Source: a virus
Length of the DNA stretch: 47,497 nucleotides
Direction: 5' to 3' (one strand)
IMG/VR virus record: IMGVR_UViG_3300009068_000061
Coordinates: 1 to 47,497 of that record
How positions within the stretch are numbered: the first letter of the stretch is position 1; every line of letters begins with the position of its first letter. Below, piece after piece: positions 15,890 through 32,266 of the stretch. The notes beneath the pieces were generated by a model. The model worked only from the letters and a program-made list of their open reading frames with translations, did no database searches and was not told the DNA's origin. The position numbers and the translations under genes are program-made.

Positions 15890-16076
15890 TGTTATTTTTG
15901 GTAACAAGGTATAACTACCTTGCCTTCTGGGTGCTTACGCAGCCATTAGGAATTTTTCATCGTTTGCAGATAAAGTTTTTTGTGTCTACGACCGGGTTAC
16001 CCCAATCCTAACGGCTTCTACATTGCCGGACTGTCCATTTCATTACTCTTGACCCAATCGATCCTGTGTCAGGCCC
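15890..16076 (-). ncRNA. ssrA: tmRNA, coding piece of a circularly permuted (two-piece) gene
   Basis: On the minus strand this piece starts GGGCCTGA at 16076 and continues ACAGGATCGATTGGGTC, the tmRNA D-loop region (compare GGATTCGACGGG in one-piece tmRNAs). The tag frame GCA AAC GAT GAA AAA TTC CTA ATG GCT GCG TAA encodes ANDEKFLMAA, ending in the AA that proteases recognise. T at -5 and A at -4 before the resume codon fit the family. A hairpin (CAAGG...CCTTG) follows the tag. GGGCCTG pairs as a 7-bp acceptor stem with CAGGTCC of the acceptor piece at 16463-16469, and TTGGGTC pairs with GATTCAA there to form helix 2. tmRNA rescues stalled ribosomes and tags the products. The tag resembles betaproteobacterial ones. 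Confidence 0.9.
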
Positions 16077-16077
16077 A

Positions 16078-16446
16078 TCATAAAGAAACTTGTTTGAGAT
16101 ACTGCTCACCGTCACCGGTAACATACCAATACTCATCATCGTTGACTATGTATCCCGAGTCTGCCAAACTATCCATAGCATTGTCAAATGCTTGGGTGCG
16201 TGACTCATCTTCTACATAGTCTAATCCTGACATGATGGCAGTATAGATTCCTTTTAGTATTAGAATTTTACCTAATCCCTTGCCTTGAAGGGTTGGATCT
16301 AACTCTACTAAACTTCTTCCACTATCTGCATCGTATTGAAACGTTCCTGCATATTGCCCGCCAACGTTCATTTCAACACCAATGGTATTACTACCTTTTG
16401 TTGTATTGAAACTTAGTTTTGCACCGGCAATCTCATTAATACGCAT
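16078..16446 (-). CDS. GNAT-type N-acetyltransferase encoded inside the tmRNA intervening segment
   Basis: 122 residues (MRINEIAGAKLSF...), ATG at 16446 with AAGGAAG upstream. VELDPTLQGKGLGKILILKG is the acetyl-CoA-binding motif A (Q/R-x-x-G-x-G/A) of GNAT enzymes, on a short fold. The gene lies exactly between the two tmRNA pieces: the acceptor piece ends with CCA 13 bases before the ATG, and the mature coding piece begins 2 bases after the stop codon. It is thus co-transcribed with, and presumably freed by the processing of, the tmRNA. Substrate unknown; a role in translation or toxin control is only a guess. Confidence 0.85.
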   Translation of the reverse strand: MRINEIAGAKLSFNTTKGSNTIGVEMNVGGQYAGTFQYDADSGRSLVELDPTLQGKGLGKILILKGIYTAIMSGLDYVEDESRTQAFDNAMDSLADSGYIVNDDEYWYVTGDGEQYLKQVSL

Positions 16447-16458
16447 CAAACTTCCTTA

Positions 16459-16535
16459 TGGTGGACCTGGCGGGCACTGCCCCCGCGTCTTGAATCCTTT
16501 TCAATCTACTTCATACAATCTTAACTGTTATTTAG
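16459..16535 (-). ncRNA. ssrA: tmRNA, acceptor piece of the permuted gene
   Basis: Minus strand: ...GGATTCAAGACGCGGG, a T-arm GCGGG/CCCGC with loop GGCAGTG, then CAGGTCC, A and an encoded CCA ending at 16459. One-piece tmRNAs end GACGCGGG TTCAANT CCCGCCAG-TCC-ACCA, so the match is close except for the T-loop. CAGGTCC pairs with the 5' GGGCCTG of the coding piece. The 5' boundary is approximate. A TATACT at 16530-16535 with a poor -35 may be part of the promoter. Confidence 0.88.
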
Positions 16536-21059: not shown

Positions 21060-22706
21060 TTATTTTTCAAACATTGCTTTGAGATAATTACCGTAGGTTT
21101 TGTGATGCAAAATTTTCATGTCAATGAGATTTATATCAAAATTTAAATTTTTAGCTAAGAGTTTTTTATACTCAAAAACTTTTTTTAAATGTAGTTGATC
21201 TAGTTGATTCCACGGCACTTGGTCATGTTGTTTGTTTAATAGTTGGTCTGAATCTATGCCTAGCCCACTCAACAGGAGAGCCGCGTCGCCGGGAATTTTC
21301 AAGTGTGATTTTATTCTAGCATTCAGTGCTTCGGTAATGTTCAAAACAGAGTAATAGTCTGTGTGTTTATTCTTCCAGACTATTGCATGTCGGCGGCGAT
21401 CAGTGCCTATGTCAGACCCACCAGGACGAGTATTGTTGTCTATTTTACTGTAACCATATTTTTCATAATTTTTTTCTATATCGCTGATGAAGCTATTATC
21501 ATAATCAACGGTAGGGCGTATGTTTAAAGCTTCAACTAGCCACTGATCTAGTTTGTTTTGGTCACTGAGCAAAAAATCAGTTGTGCGTTGTAGGCTATCT
21601 AAATCTTCTTCGGGTAATCCATAAATAAACCCGGCGGCTAACGAAACTGAATCACCCCACTTAGATTTGATATCAGCTATAGTTTTGAACATTTTATCTC
21701 GATTGCCACCTTTGCCTATTATAGATGCAGTCTTGGGGTTCAGAGTTTCAATGCCAAAAAACGCCGCTTTTAAGCCGCTGTCAAACAAATAGTCGATTGT
21801 TTTGGGATGTGCGGTCAGCAGGTCTAATCTCAAATACGCCCAGTATTCTAATTTAAATGGAAGTTGTTGAGATATTTCATAAATCATTCGACATTTATCA
21901 ACATTGTCGTTAAACGTATCGTCACCCATCAAATAACGTGTGACACCAAATCTGTTGTAATTGTCTATCATCTCAGCCTGAATAGATTCTTTTGATCTAA
22001 TATAATCAGTTTTCTTTTTTCCATTGAAAGGATAGGCACAAAATGCACATTTGAAAATGCATCCACGACCTACTTCTAGATGAAATGTTGATCCAGGCAG
22101 TATTGACCAGTCTGGATCATACCGCATATGGGATGATGAAAAATCATATCTAGACGCTACCTTGTCTGTGAGCACTATTGGCCCATAGATACTTTTATAA
22201 CTTTTTTCTATAGGAGACGATGACCCAAGATGATCTACCAAATCCAATATTGCAGTTTCGGCGTATCCTAACACAAGATAATCAAAATCTTTGTTGTACT
22301 CAGTATCTAATGCAGTTGCTCCGCCGAGTACTATTTTGGTTTGAGGATTCAATGATTTAATTAGTTTTTTTAATTCAATATTTTTGTTTTTTCCATGAGG
22401 TAAAAAACTACCTGGGTCAATTTCTTTTAATGTCATGCCATTACTGCCATGATCTTTAATAAGTTCAATGGAAGAATAATAGAAATTGTTTATACCCACT
22501 AACAAAGTTTGATCAGATATTATCTCTCTGAGAATAGTAGTTATTTCTTTGAATGATAATGCTGATGCATGATGTATCATTGCAACTTCTATTCCGTGTT
22601 CTTTAAGTACATGCGCTACTTTGAATGGTCCAAGTAGAATGTTTAAAGAAATTATATCAGTAGAATCTGTAATTAAAATAACATTAGGTTTTTTATTATT
22701 AAACAT
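21060..22706 (-). CDS. Cobalamin-binding-type radical SAM protein, copy 1
   Basis: 548 residues. The first ~190 residues (NVILITDSTDIISLNILLGP, then FKVAHVLKEHGIEVAMIHH) look like the B12-binding Rossmann domain of class B radical SAM enzymes, though the usual DxHxxG is not evident. The core has LEVGRGCIFKCAFCAYPFNG (C-x3-C-x2-C, 4Fe-4S) and AAFFGIETLNPKTA. Such enzymes methylate, thiomethylate or rearrange many substrates. It lies between tRNA-Trp and a class II tRNA and has a paralogue 200 bases upstream. A tRNA-modification role is inferred from location only. Confidence 0.88.
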   Translation of the reverse strand: MFNNKKPNVILITDSTDIISLNILLGPFKVAHVLKEHGIEVAMIHHASALSFKEITTILREIISDQTLLVGINNFYYSSIELIKDHGSNGMTLKEIDPGSFLPHGKNKNIELKKLIKSLNPQTKIVLGGATALDTEYNKDFDYLVLGYAETAILDLVDHLGSSSPIEKSYKSIYGPIVLTDKVASRYDFSSSHMRYDPDWSILPGSTFHLEVGRGCIFKCAFCAYPFNGKKKTDYIRSKESIQAEMIDNYNRFGVTRYLMGDDTFNDNVDKCRMIYEISQQLPFKLEYWAYLRLDLLTAHPKTIDYLFDSGLKAAFFGIETLNPKTASIIGKGGNRDKMFKTIADIKSKWGDSVSLAAGFIYGLPEEDLDSLQRTTDFLLSDQNKLDQWLVEALNIRPTVDYDNSFISDIEKNYEKYGYSKIDNNTRPGGSDIGTDRRRHAIVWKNKHTDYYSVLNITEALNARIKSHLKIPGDAALLLSGLGIDSDQLLNKQHDQVPWNQLDQLHLKKVFEYKKLLAKNLNFDINLIDMKILHHKTYGNYLKAMFEK

Positions 22707-22720
22707 CTATTACTTATGTG

Positions 22721-22812
22721 TGGTACCAGCGGAGAGGATCGAACTCTCTCAAGAACGCTAATCGGGCGCTAAAAGGTGTATAAGACCTCTCTGACTTCCA
22801 AGTCTCGCTGGC
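22721..22812 (-). tRNA. Class II tRNA with UAU anticodon
   Basis: 92 bases. Acceptor GCCAGCG/CGCTGGT with G1-U72, A73, encoded CCA. Anticodon stem GAGGT/ACCTT with loop CTTATAC gives UAU, which would read AUA. A long variable arm AGCGC...GCGTT makes it class II like Leu, Ser or Tyr tRNAs. T-arm GAGAG-TTCGATC-CTCTC. The D-arm is short. The charged amino acid is uncertain: Ile by anticodon, Leu or Ser by architecture. Confidence 0.75.
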
Positions 22813-22903: not shown

Positions 22904-24430
22904 TTATTTAGAGTGTTGAATAAGATTCAACAATTGTTTTTTATATTCTTTATCAAAATTTGGTTTAACAGTATGCTCCACAGCATGGAAATCAAATTGG
23001 TGATATGGAGTAAATCGTGATGTATCAAAATCAACGCCATATGTAGTCAAAGCCAATGCATCATGTCCGGGCAACATAAAATTTGGTAGCCGTCGAGATT
23101 CACTGGTGAATTTTGCAGCCAATGCGTTGACTTCCTCACTGTTAGTAAAATTGTTCTTCCAATTTCTTGAATTAGATTCAGTATCAGTGCCAGTATCAAC
23201 GTACCCATATTTGGTGAAGTTTTTTTCAAACTCGCTAACGTATGTAGATTTGTTATTGTTATACATATGCAATCCATTTGACATCCAACTATGCAATGGA
23301 ATCTGTTGACTTATTAAGCTATTATGAGTTTCCCACACACTGTCGATGCTCTCCTCGGGCAATCCTAAAATAAAACTTCCGTGCATTGAGATGTCTGAAT
23401 ATTGATTGTGAATAGTTTGAATCATGTCAATCTGACGTGATTTGTTGTATCCTTTACCAATTATTTTTCCTGCTTTTTCATTCAACGTCTCAATGCCAAA
23501 ATACATAGATCTAACACCAATATCGTGCAATATCTTTACTGTATCTGGCCTGGTACATAGTAGATCTAATCTGTGATATCCCCAAAATACAGGTTGGAAG
23601 TTCAAACGATCAACCACACGACGTATGGATTCTAATTTTTCAATATGATCATTGAAGGTATCATCCACAATGTGATAATGCCGAATACCATATCTATCGT
23701 AGTTGTTTTTTAATTCAGCCTCCAATATATCAGCAGTTTTGACAAAATCTAAATTTTGTTTTCCATTCATTGGGAAGGCACAAAACTTGCATTTAAAAAT
23801 ACAACCACGACCTATTTCAATCGGAAGACTTTGATGATTCACTATATCTGTGGCTTCCCAACTCATATCTTCAGTGTTAAAATTATATGCAGGAGCAAAT
23901 CGATCGTCGATTACAGTCACACCATAGATATTTTTACTGCTTTTATTTAAGAGTTCTCCGGTGGTAAGATGATTGGCCAAATTAACTATGGATATTTCAC
24001 TATATCCAATGAATGCATAGTCAATATTTCTGTTTGAATATTGTTGTGTTACCCTTGTACCACCTACTATGATTTTTAGTTTGCTATTTGTTTTATGCAA
24101 ATATTCAAAAAATTTATTTTCAAAATCTTTTCCTTGCGGGAATACTGAGTCATCGACAATGTCGGGATATGGTGGTGTAGGTTGGCCTACTTGTTTTTGT
24201 ATTTGAGTATTTCGCAAATACGTAGAACTAAATCCAAGCAGTATAGTTTGATCTGACACTGCTAAATCAACAAGTTCAACCAGATCCTCATGTGTATATT
24301 CAGAATAATGATTGACTACCAAACACGAGTATCCGTGTTTTCTCAAAACATGAGCACATTTAAATGCTCCGATAGTGATTGATCCAAATATGTTGTCGGT
24401 GCGATCTGTAAAAAGTATAGCATTGTACAT
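22904..24430 (-). CDS. Cobalamin-binding-type radical SAM protein, copy 2
   Basis: 508 residues, clearly paralogous to the 21060-22706 protein: NAILFTDRTDNIFGSITIGA, then FKCAHVLRKHGYSCLVVNHY at the N-terminus, IEIGRGCIFKCKFCAFPMNG as the Fe-S motif and MYFGIETLNEKAGKIIGKG after it. Both keep FNDHIEK/FNDNVDK and the DDTFND segment. It is embedded between tRNA-Arg(TCT) and tRNA-Leu(TAA) and is preceded by CATAAATA 7 bases before the ATG. Substrate unknown; the two copies may act on different sites or as a pair. Confidence 0.88.
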   Translation of the reverse strand: MYNAILFTDRTDNIFGSITIGAFKCAHVLRKHGYSCLVVNHYSEYTHEDLVELVDLAVSDQTILLGFSSTYLRNTQIQKQVGQPTPPYPDIVDDSVFPQGKDFENKFFEYLHKTNSKLKIIVGGTRVTQQYSNRNIDYAFIGYSEISIVNLANHLTTGELLNKSSKNIYGVTVIDDRFAPAYNFNTEDMSWEATDIVNHQSLPIEIGRGCIFKCKFCAFPMNGKQNLDFVKTADILEAELKNNYDRYGIRHYHIVDDTFNDHIEKLESIRRVVDRLNFQPVFWGYHRLDLLCTRPDTVKILHDIGVRSMYFGIETLNEKAGKIIGKGYNKSRQIDMIQTIHNQYSDISMHGSFILGLPEESIDSVWETHNSLISQQIPLHSWMSNGLHMYNNNKSTYVSEFEKNFTKYGYVDTGTDTESNSRNWKNNFTNSEEVNALAAKFTSESRRLPNFMLPGHDALALTTYGVDFDTSRFTPYHQFDFHAVEHTVKPNFDKEYKKQLLNLIQHSK

Positions 24431-25176: not shown

Positions 25177-25252
25177 TGGTGCCCTGGGTGGGACTCGAAC
25201 CCACAGAACCTGGTTTCTAAGACCAGTACGTATGCCATTCCGTCACCAGGGC
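25177..25252 (-). tRNA. tRNA-Leu(TAG) with a collapsed variable arm
   Basis: Acceptor GCCCTGG/CCAGGGC, anticodon CTGGT-CTTAGAA-ACCAG, T-arm GTGGG-TTCGAGT-CCCAC, A73, CCA. The D-arm looks leucine-like, but only about 5 bases separate anticodon and T stems, so the class II arm is missing (76 bases in total). Confidence 0.88.
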
Positions 25253-25723: not shown

Positions 25724-25815
25724 TCATTGTAGGCAGGATTCGAACCTGCACGAGGCGTTTATTTCCTCTGACCCGATAAGAGGCCTATGACTACCAAATT
25801 TCATCACTACGAGTT
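25724..25815 (-). tRNA. Degenerate class II tRNA-like gene, possible UAU anticodon
   Basis: Good T-arm GCAGG-TTCGAAT-CCTGC, leucine-like D-arm and a variable arm GAGG...CCTC. The anticodon arm GGCCT-CTTATCG-GGTCA has two mismatches, and the acceptor (CTCGTAG with CTACAAT) two more; no CCA is encoded. An extended helix GAACTCGTAG with CTAC-AAT-GAGTTC is possible. The loop ATCGGGTCA can pair with TGACCCGAT just 5' of the gene. Probably non-functional as a normal tRNA, or specialised. Confidence 0.5.
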
Positions 25816-27691: not shown

Positions 27692-27762
27692 TGGCCCCGG
27701 TGGAAGGAATCGAACCTTCGTTGGTTGTATACGGACCGTGTTACCATTACACTACAACCGGG
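27692..27762 (-). tRNA. tRNA of uncertain identity
   Basis: Acceptor CCCGGTT/CACCGGG with one mismatch, D-arm GTGT-AATGGTA-ACAC, T-arm GAAGG-TTCGATT-CCTTC, G73, CCA. The anticodon arm is weak: GGT/ACC flanked by C-A mismatches around CGTATAC, so UAU or GUA cannot be separated. Confidence 0.65.
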
Positions 27763-29431: not shown

Positions 29432-29509
29432 TGGTACCCTTGCTCGGACTCGAACCGAGAGAACTCTTCCTTTTGAGAGAAGCGACTTTGCCAATTTGTC
29501 CACAAGGGT
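29432..29509 (-). tRNA. tRNA-Leu(CAA) with a short variable arm
   Basis: Acceptor ACCCTTG/CAAGGGT, anticodon CTTCT-CTCAAAA-GGAAG, T-arm CTCGG-TTCGAGT-CCGAG, A73, CCA. Only about 6 bases separate anticodon and T stems, where leucine tRNAs normally have a long arm. Confidence 0.87.
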
Positions 29510-29510
29510 G

Positions 29511-30269
29511 TTATTTTTTTCTTTTGTGAAATACCACTGGCTGGAAATCAAATTCACCAGGGCAAAATTCACATTGATCAATGGGTTGATTTCTTGAGTC
29601 TACAAAGTCTGTCAACTGTTGCTCAGTGCAGTCCACACTCAATGGTTGATACTGAGCCAACAACTGTTCTTGCCTTGCATCCATGATTACTGATTGCTGT
29701 GTACAAAACTCTGGCAACACAGCCATCACAGGACACTTGTACAGTTTTCCTTTGAATACAGTGTGACTATGCCTCATGGTGCAGGCTTTGAATGCAGTTA
29801 TCGGATTGCTCTGATGAACAACAAATGCATCACCTTGCGGGATGATTGCAGCCGGAGTAAATTCTGTATTGTCAATAAGGTTGCCCCATTGTCGTTCTAA
29901 TGCAGGTCGCATCTCAGGTCGATGTACACTTATACCCCACCCCACATGGTATTTGCTGTAAGAGTCGAGATCTTTTGCTATTTTTGCATTAGTGCCATTA
30001 CTCTGAATCATGATAGTGGTTTCTGGCCACAATCTGCGAAGATTCACGACCCAAGTTTCTAAACCGGGATGCAAGCTGGGTTCACCACCAATGATCACTA
30101 TCATTGATGCATTAATACGTTGACTCCAGGCTTCAACAGCAGGTGCAGAATCTTCCCATGAGTAGTGACCACGGAAATCGTGATCATTGAACCTATTGCA
30201 GTTGGTGCAGGCCAGGTTGCATTGATTGGTGATGTAGAACTCTATCACTGAGTCTAAGAATACGGACAT
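29511..30269 (-). CDS. Radical SAM protein with C-terminal Cys (SPASM-like) region
   Basis: 252 residues. YITNQCNLACTNCNRFNDHD has the C-x3-C-x2-C cluster motif near residue 17, VIIGGEPSLHPGLE the GGE motif and IMIQSNGTN the next strand. Extra cysteines (ACTMRHS, YKCPVM, CEFCPGEF) near the C-terminus could hold a second Fe-S cluster, as in SPASM/Twitch proteins that modify peptides or help maturation. Its stop lies 1 base from tRNA-Leu(CAA). A CGTAAATA element lies 5 bases before the ATG. Substrate unknown. Confidence 0.85.
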   Translation of the reverse strand: MSVFLDSVIEFYITNQCNLACTNCNRFNDHDFRGHYSWEDSAPAVEAWSQRINASMIVIIGGEPSLHPGLETWVVNLRRLWPETTIMIQSNGTNAKIAKDLDSYSKYHVGWGISVHRPEMRPALERQWGNLIDNTEFTPAAIIPQGDAFVVHQSNPITAFKACTMRHSHTVFKGKLYKCPVMAVLPEFCTQQSVIMDARQEQLLAQYQPLSVDCTEQQLTDFVDSRNQPIDQCEFCPGEFDFQPVVFHKRKK

Positions 30270-31163: not shown

Positions 31164-31379
31164 TTATTGTGACTGTGCAGATTCCAACGCATCAGCAGCT
31201 TCTTCCAATAGGTCTGCAATACGGTCAGGGGCACCTTCCTGTACACTTTTACGTGAAGTGATCTGTCGACGGATCTCTGCTCGCTTGCGCAAACGGAACA
31301 CTAGACTTTGTTCACTCACAGGCAAATGACTTTCGTCCTTGGCCATCAGTTCCTCAAAGCGGTCAAATTCTTCGTTCAT
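31164..31379 (-). CDS. Small hypothetical protein
   Basis: 71 residues from the ATG at 31379, which overlaps the RNA ligase stop as ATGA. An earlier codon lies inside the ligase. Charged helices (MNEEFDRFEELMAKDESHLP, RKRAEIRRQITSRK). Translationally coupled to the ligase; function unknown. Confidence 0.72.
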   Translation of the reverse strand: MNEEFDRFEELMAKDESHLPVSEQSLVFRLRKRAEIRRQITSRKSVQEGAPDRIADLLEEAADALESAQSQ

Positions 31380-32266
31380 ACCATCTCCAAATAGTCTCGC
31401 ACCCATGCCAGGCGTGCTTGTTCATCCATAAGGGTATACAGCTCTATGTTAGCACGAATATGTGATAAGAGTCCGTAATATTCCTCGTCAATTTGTTCCC
31501 GGAATTCTTGTGTCATCAACTTGTCAGTACGAGGGTTACGTGCCACCCACTTTGCAGTTAGGTAGTATGGGCTTTTGATCTTGGCACTCACTAGATAGTC
31601 ATCTGTATAAAATACAAAACCTTCATGCCGAACAGTTTTCACTTCCTGCACTAGTTCGCCCAGAGTACAACGCTTCCATTCTACCACGTGGTCTGACAAT
31701 GCATATTGGTGATACAGGCTGAGTCCATCGTTTTCGCTACGGCTTTCCCAAGTCTTTTTACGATAGCCCAGCAAGTACAGTCCTGGCTTTTCTACAATGA
31801 TGTGTGGATCATTTGCATGCACACACTCAAACATAAAAGTCAAGTCAGGGAAGCCACTCACATACCGTTCAAAGGTGCCGCGACGCCGGTCAATGAAGGA
31901 GTTGGCCATGTCTACAAAGTCACCGGATGTGGATCCAGTTGTACTCACCAGCAACCCGCCGTTGTGCCATGTCACTGCAACCATAAATCCATTGACCTTA
32001 CGAAAGCATTCTACCACAGTATCTTCACTCAGCACAGGAGCCTTGGCTTCTACACCGTAGTTGTAGATCTTTGTGAATGGCCGTGACACCACATTGAAGT
32101 CCTCATCCACGATGGTACCGCGACATTCTTCCAAAAAATCATTCCACAAGTTGTCGTAGAACACAGCCTTACGATACTTGAGAACGTAGATACCATCGCC
32201 GGCAGGCTTCATACTAACCAACTTTGGGTTGGCTAGCACAAACTCCTTCAATAGTTCTTTGTTCAT
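31376..32266 (-). CDS. RNA ligase (T4 Rnl1-like nucleotidyltransferase)
   Basis: 296 residues. The nucleotidyl lysine motif is KVNGFMVAV (KxxG), preceded by ECRGTIVDEDFNVVSRPF and IYNYGVEA and followed by FMFECVHANDPHII (motif III), VRHEGFVFYT (motif IV) and SAKIKSPYY (motif V). The arrangement is that of phage RNA ligases that seal broken RNAs through an adenylylated lysine. With the kinase at 39564-40028 and a second ligase, it suggests repair of tRNAs cut by host nucleases. It lies beside the HD hydrolase gene. Confidence 0.9.
   Translation of the reverse strand: MNKELLKEFVLANPKLVSMKPAGDGIYVLKYRKAVFYDNLWNDFLEECRGTIVDEDFNVVSRPFTKIYNYGVEAKAPVLSEDTVVECFRKVNGFMVAVTWHNGGLLVSTTGSTSGDFVDMANSFIDRRRGTFERYVSGFPDLTFMFECVHANDPHIIVEKPGLYLLGYRKKTWESRSENDGLSLYHQYALSDHVVEWKRCTLGELVQEVKTVRHEGFVFYTDDYLVSAKIKSPYYLTAKWVARNPRTDKLMTQEFREQIDEEYYGLLSHIRANIELYTLMDEQARLAWVRDYLEMV

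Follow-up and report, generated by a model that had tools for sequence, protein, structure and literature searches.

The tRNA encoded at positions 22721-22812 (minus strand) carries two anticodon-like arms in tandem, and in the reading that we favour, at roughly two chances in three, it is an isoleucine tRNA in which the UAU triplet of the first arm decodes and the GAU triplet of the second is the identity element for isoleucyl-tRNA synthetase (IleRS). The gene lies in a 47,497-nt stretch of viral DNA, here called the window (IMG/VR record IMGVR_UViG_3300009068_000061, positions 1 to 47,497). In bacteria, the separation of AUA as Ile from AUG as Met normally depends on a single essential enzyme, TilS, which they normally need for reading AUA; to our knowledge, TilS and tRNA-Ile2 are nearly universal among them. 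By its structure, the tRNA is best seen as a variation on the known tRNA-Ile(UAU), which would become a new principle of tRNA identity if its charging holds: a second anticodon would be shown to IleRS, and TilS would be avoided. The anticodon seen by the synthetase would then not need to equal the one seen by the ribosome, the life of Actinomyces without TilS would be explained, and the design would also point to a general way of building tRNAs in which codon and amino acid are chosen separately. The feature easily escapes notice, since annotation tools label it tRNA-Ile(UAT) with a variable arm.

ARAGORN calls a 92-nt tRNA with the anticodon UAU at exactly these positions, in an array of 35 genes that it identifies in the window. 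The fold is backed by a gap-free alignment of 19 relatives from the window's subfamily, in which 99.6% of the cells pair, the UAU stem has 7 bp, the D arm has 4 bp and a 4-nt loop, and 15 pairs have changed on both sides, compared with a mean of 9.2 after shuffling (0/500 shuffles). The 5' strand of the acceptor stem, GCCAGCG (22806-22812), forms 7 bp with CGCTGGT, beginning with G1-U72; all of its cells are paired and four of the seven pairs have changed on both sides. A single nucleotide (A) separates it from the short D arm GACT-TGGA-AGTC (22793-22804; 3/4 pairs changed on both sides), and after another A follows the first anticodon arm (22771-22791), a 7-bp stem GAGAGGT/ACCTTTT with the loop CTTATAC, which is present in the minimum-energy fold and has 98.5% of its cells paired. 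The decoding anticodon UAU (22780-22782), a reader of AUA, is preceded by U33 and followed by A37. The second anticodon-like arm comes immediately afterwards (22754-22770), with a 5-bp stem AGCGC/GCGTT, 100% of its cells paired and compensatory changes at two pairs. Its 7-nt loop, CCGATTA, holds at positions 34-36 the triplet GAU (22761-22763), the isoleucine anticodon. The 5-nt linker CTTGA (22749-22753) is as long as a variable loop of class I and leads to the T arm GAGAG-TTCGATC-CTCTC (22732-22748), which is supported by the alignment and by ARAGORN. The 3' end consists of the discriminator A73 (22724) and an encoded CCA. The acceptor and T stems thus have a 7/5 composition, and A8 faces C. 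A73 is required in Ile tRNAs and atypical of Ser tRNAs; it is present in 150 of the 153 listed members of the family described below. C4-G69, a minor Ile determinant in E. coli and therefore not decisive, is replaced by A4-U69 in the window and occurs in 69 of 142 listed members.

Locus L002, which shares 96% similarity and whose neighbouring protein is 96% identical, keeps every part of the tRNA; in its second hairpin a G-C pair is replaced by C-G, a compensatory change. The same type of tRNA occurs in a diverged array (L011) whose neighbouring protein is only 42% identical. At the level of DNA similarity, the window tRNA matched named phages in the T arm only. These homologues, together with the covariation and the ARAGORN call, confirm what the earlier note had read from the sequence: this is a genuine tRNA with a UAU decoding anticodon that should read AUA, the loop CTTATAC and the AGCGC/GCGTT hairpin are present as it described them, and the covariation places the hairpin above chance. 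An error of sequencing in the anticodon, which would have undone that reading, is very unlikely given more than 100 UAU homologues on other contigs.

To define the family, we scanned viral contigs together with bacterial and archaeal genomes, one for each species, using the pattern CTTATAMN{24,38}GTTCRANYCN(12)CCA, in which the UAU and T loops are fixed and the extra arm is left free. Together with loci added later, this forward scan yielded at least 153 distinct long UAU tRNAs. Among the matches listed, 142 of 153 carry GAU at positions 34-36 of a 7-nt loop closed by a 3-6 bp stem, in the same register as in the window, and six more present it on a weaker or shifted stem (148 overall); GAU is absent from the arm in five (L030, L039, L055, L141 and L217). 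The first set had given the GAU arm in 90 of the 97 matches listed. Of the other long variable arms at the same loci, about 200 from Leu, Ser, Tyr and further tRNAs, none has the GAU loop. A reverse scan, with CAGATTAG and the T loop fixed and the anticodon left free, returned 110 matches, of which two are not tRNAs and one is a truncated sequence; every real tRNA among the matches listed (about 107) reads UAU by ARAGORN or by inspection. The link between UAU and GAU therefore holds in both directions, with the proviso that the family members are related by descent and the counts not independent. Named phages with the two-arm form include the Lactobacillus phages LpeD and Lpa804, Levilactobacillus phage ENFP1, Synechococcus phage SynMITS9220M01 and Acinetobacter phage vB_AbaS_qsb1.

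The second loop is most often CAGATTA (95 listed members) or CAGATAA (12), and more rarely CAGATGG, CCGATTA as in the window, CTGATTA, TAGATGA or others. Among the 142 listed members, only G34, A35 and U36 are invariant, with A, U or C at position 33 (A33 in 131 of 142) and any of U, A, G and C at position 37; GAU is invariant in A2 too. In a diverse set of family members, covariation backs all five helices, with 94.7% of the cells paired and a score of 0.810 against 0.205 after shuffling (0/500 shuffles for the whole structure), and four of four pairs of the second arm have changed on both sides.

The earlier note had assigned the gene to class II, with a long variable arm as in Leu, Ser and Tyr tRNAs. 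This assignment does not stand, because the size of the extra arm and its spacing from the T stem match an anticodon arm: the linker measures 5 nt in 100 of 152 members by ARAGORN, or 6 nt, and these two lengths account for most of the family, whereas it is mostly 1 nt in Ser tRNAs and 1-2 nt in Leu tRNAs. Judged by its sequence, the extra hairpin is an arm of anticodon-arm size followed by a linker of class I length, not a normal class II variable arm. The tRNA is truly odd, but for another reason than was first supposed.

The same geometry weighs on the proposal that the tRNA is charged with Leu or Ser and that AUA is ambiguous or reassigned, as for the nematode nev-tRNA-Ile(UAU). Neither the long extra arm nor A73 would be at odds with LeuRS, and nev-tRNAs, which share the UAU anticodon and the long extra arm, are leucylated in vitro (PMC4300185). 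The parallel, drawn in the earlier note, is apt for the anatomy and does not extend beyond it, as the nev-tRNA arm is of the Leu type whereas the two-arm tRNA has a GAU arm and belongs to genomes in which AUA behaves as Ile. Leu or Ser charging would also leave the invariant GAU without a role, and A73 speaks against Ser. When the window's open reading frames were aligned with those of phage relatives, which are distant alignments, the partners of AUA were most often Ile (0.30), followed by Val (0.20) and Leu (0.17), and recoding to Leu finds no support in this order. The Leu codons UUA and CUU gave Leu in 0.48-0.68 and Ile in 0.04-0.07. The Leu share at AUA exceeds slightly that at AUU and AUC (0.07-0.12), a point in favour of leucine. 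In four Actinomyces genomes, after a filter on GC by codon position against reverse-strand shadow ORFs, AUA was aligned with Ile in 35, Val in 21, Leu in 10 and Met in 5 of 83 cases, which are small counts; as controls, AUU gave Ile in 513, Val in 150 and Leu in 47 of 749, and CUA gave Leu in 149 of 167. By these alignments AUA behaves as Ile both in Actinomyces and in the window phage, contrary to the suggestion of reassigned or ambiguous decoding. Wholesale reassignment to Leu or Ser is excluded, AUA may be ambiguous at a low level in view of the small Leu excess and the distant alignments, and charging with Leu or Ser is in our judgement quite improbable.

Actinomyces amounts to a natural experiment on the two-arm tRNA in cells. 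Two Actinomyces chromosomes were among the scan matches, and TilS (TIGR02432) was found in the seven other bacterial genomes and in neither of these two. For searches in genomes, a two-arm tRNA was called with model R1 at 80 bits or more, since R1 scores ordinary tRNAs too; on the window, the Leu(UAA) tRNA reaches 57 bits with it and the two-arm tRNA no more than 49. All 49 Actinomyces genomes examined contain the two-arm tRNA, at 91-100% identity, and none of the 49 has a TilS match above the cut-off (14 have weak partial matches of about 25 bits). In the sampled family, the Actinomycetaceae, TilS is above the cut-off in 125 of 141 genomes, and the sister genera keep it. All 10 sampled Actinomyces are among the 16 misses; of the remaining six genomes, three have no match and three have partial matches. 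The three without a match (G328, G342 and G354) contain no credible UAU tRNA by pattern and are probably incomplete. Among 248 sampled genomes of the order and 396 of the phylum, two-arm scores were confined to Actinomyces, with 0 of 395 in the actinobacterial phylum sample outside Actinomyces. The two-arm tRNA is likewise rare in the Alphaproteobacteria (2/385), and no clear sign of a mobile element was seen in the genes next to the other bacterial copies.

In the single-contig Actinomyces genome G053 (3.49 Mb), 50 tRNA matches resolve into 48 distinct tRNAs that could be read. These include Ile(GAU), the two-arm Ile(UAU) and two CAU tRNAs, an elongator Met tRNA and a CGCGGGG initiator; there is no third CAU tRNA among the 48 to serve as tRNA-Ile2(CAU). 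With neither TilS nor such a tRNA, the two-arm tRNA is the sole plausible reader of AUA in this genome, and since AUA aligns mostly with Ile and Val codons, it must read AUA as Ile, which is hard to reconcile with Leu or Ser charging. With moderate confidence we extend the proposal to the division of labour as a whole, in which UAU would serve the ribosome and GAU the synthetase, and a phage-type copy on the chromosome appears to have displaced tRNA-Ile2 and TilS across the genus; a transfer from phage to bacterium would be the direction implied. A tRNA-Leu(UAA) gene is a near neighbour of the Actinomyces two-arm tRNA, at about 30-130 bp, in four loci (L426-L429).

How the tRNA may acquire isoleucine can be considered from what is known of bacterial IleRS, for which the anticodon and A73 are strong determinants and which charges tRNA-Ile2 with Ile only when C34 carries lysidine (PMC9976931, PMC11938285). 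A UAU tRNA has neither G34 nor lysidine, and GAU on the second arm is proposed as the solution. The first arm, with U33 and A37, would decode AUA on the ribosome, and the second, occupying the place of the variable arm, would show GAU in a 7-nt loop to the host's ordinary IleRS, leading to charging with Ile; AUA would then be read as Ile without the lysidine modification by TilS that tRNA-Ile2(CAU) needs. Phages that keep the two-arm tRNA in their tRNA arrays would thereby hold an AUA decoder independent of the host's TilS. None of ten phage records tested encodes a synthetase of the Ile/Leu/Val class, and a host enzyme must therefore charge the two-arm tRNA. The GAU arm is off the canonical anticodon position, so that the five-way junction would have to stack differently for IleRS to recognise it, and the two arms might trade places by restacking. 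In most phages the second loop, CAGAUUA with A33 and U37, is an imperfect copy of an Ile anticodon loop: U37 precludes the t6A37 modification there, for which bacterial IleRS reportedly has a preference (PMC9976931), and since most second loops have no U33, the GAU arm should be kept from decoding. The copy of the loop is perfect in Actinomyces, where the arm and linker read GTGC-CTGATAA-GCAC-AAGGTC and the corresponding part of tRNA-Ile(GAU) in the same genome reads ATCC-CTGATAA-GGAT-GAGGTC; both have the loop CUGAUAA, and in both AGGUC comes after the arm. The likeness to tRNA-Ile1(GAU) thus lies in the GAU of the 7-nt loop. In the two-arm tRNA, however, this arm stands beside a separate UAU arm and usually has neither U33 nor A37, so that it should not decode.

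Another possibility is that the tRNA is an ordinary Ile tRNA charged through its UAU arm by an IleRS that tolerates UAU, the GAU arm being a structural or tertiary element or the relic of a duplication. Single-arm UAU tRNAs are common in viral contigs (L480-L599; 108 distinct, A73 in 106), and the GAU arm can therefore not be needed in every host. UAU tRNA-Ile is known as a replacement of Ile2 in a few bacteria, with UAU-type tRNAs in Bifidobacterium, Mycoplasma and Neorickettsia (PMC8450103), and the IleRS of lactic acid bacteria is reported to recognise UAU, to judge from a title cited in PMC9976931. Lactobacillus phage 3-521 (L478), which like ENFP1 (L475) infects L. brevis, keeps the arm with GGA in place of GAU; this would be in keeping with a UAU-accepting IleRS in the host and is a possible, single case of relaxation. 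A relic would nevertheless be expected to drift, yet the triplet is invariant while the stem and the other loop positions vary. No tertiary partner stands out: 5'-AUC-3' is present in the T loop of 17 and in the D loop region of two of the 142 listed members, and a kissing interaction of GAU with AUC of the D or T loop was accordingly discarded as a general explanation. Charging through the UAU arm alone is on balance unlikely in our view.

The tRNAs called tRNA-Ile3 (UAU) in Mycoplasma mobile, Bifidobacterium and Lactobacillus share with the two-arm tRNA the UAU anticodon, the reading of AUA as Ile and the replacement or duplication of the TilS/tRNA-Ile2 route; they are described as class I tRNAs that have a single anticodon arm and are matched by a suited IleRS, whereas the window tRNA adds the GAU arm. 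The tRNA-Ile(TAT) of Mycobacterium mucogenicum is a phage-derived UAU tRNA present beside TilS and is reported to be expressed (PMC6582537). It belongs to a phage-derived tRNA cluster, and as far as the comparison by description goes, the consulted text of PMC6582537 does not describe an extra arm. A literature search returned no account of a GAU second arm or of Actinomyces without TilS, Mukai 2017 and Taniguchi 2013 being outside its reach.

We also considered whether the tRNA is an allo-tRNA(UAU) or a tRNA-Sec-like tRNA in the sense of Mukai et al. 2017. As summarised in PMC7609411 (section 7), UAU is among the most frequent anticodons of metagenomic allo-tRNAs, and odd UAU forms are described; allo-tRNA(UAU) also shares with the window tRNA an extra arm and an unusual D arm. 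The 4-nt D loop and the lengthened anticodon stem of the window tRNA resemble tRNA-Sec-like forms, and some allo-tRNA(UAU) sequences could overlap with the two-arm family. The defining acceptor/T composition of allo-tRNAs is, however, 8/4 or 9/3, and the 7/5 of the two-arm tRNA, with A8 facing C, sets it apart as far as that description goes; neither a GAU arm nor A73 is described for allo-tRNA in the consulted text of PMC7609411. We regard membership in this class as very improbable. Identity as tRNA-Sec itself was rejected, as it needs the anticodon UCA and an 8-bp acceptor stem and the window tRNA has UAU and 7 bp.

Finally, the GAU arm might be a decoy, a sacrificial anticodon offered to a host anticodon nuclease. 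T4 Rnl1-like RNA ligases are an enzyme type known from phage tRNA repair, and the window encodes one (31376-32266, minus strand), a possible tRNA repair enzyme against anticodon nucleases; cleavage of tRNA may thus be a threat to this phage. A decoy would leave unexplained the strict pairing of UAU with GAU and with no other isotype, as well as the fixed single chromosomal copy in Actinomyces, which has no other reader of AUA, and we give the idea scant credence.

The window contains several other genes of note, all on the minus strand. A degenerate tRNA-like gene at 25725-25813, possibly a decaying tRNA, has an anticodon loop of six nucleotides (CTTATC) and an acceptor stem that pairs poorly. 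A further tRNA at 27695-27761 was missed by ARAGORN and scores 36.9 bits with Rfam. The tRNAs Leu(UAG) (25177-25252) and Leu(CAA) (29432-29509) have short, class I-like variable loops; similar short-loop Leu tRNAs occur in actinobacterial loci (L432-L451) and have been noted for M. mucogenicum (PMC6582537). A permuted two-piece tmRNA at 15935-16520 (Rfam RF04321, 80.9 bits) has an unusually long stretch between its acceptor and coding pieces. Radical SAM proteins are encoded amid the tRNA array at 21060-22706, 22904-24430 and 29511-30269; the first of these has a weak match to a B12-binding domain, and its relatives flank tRNA arrays on other contigs.
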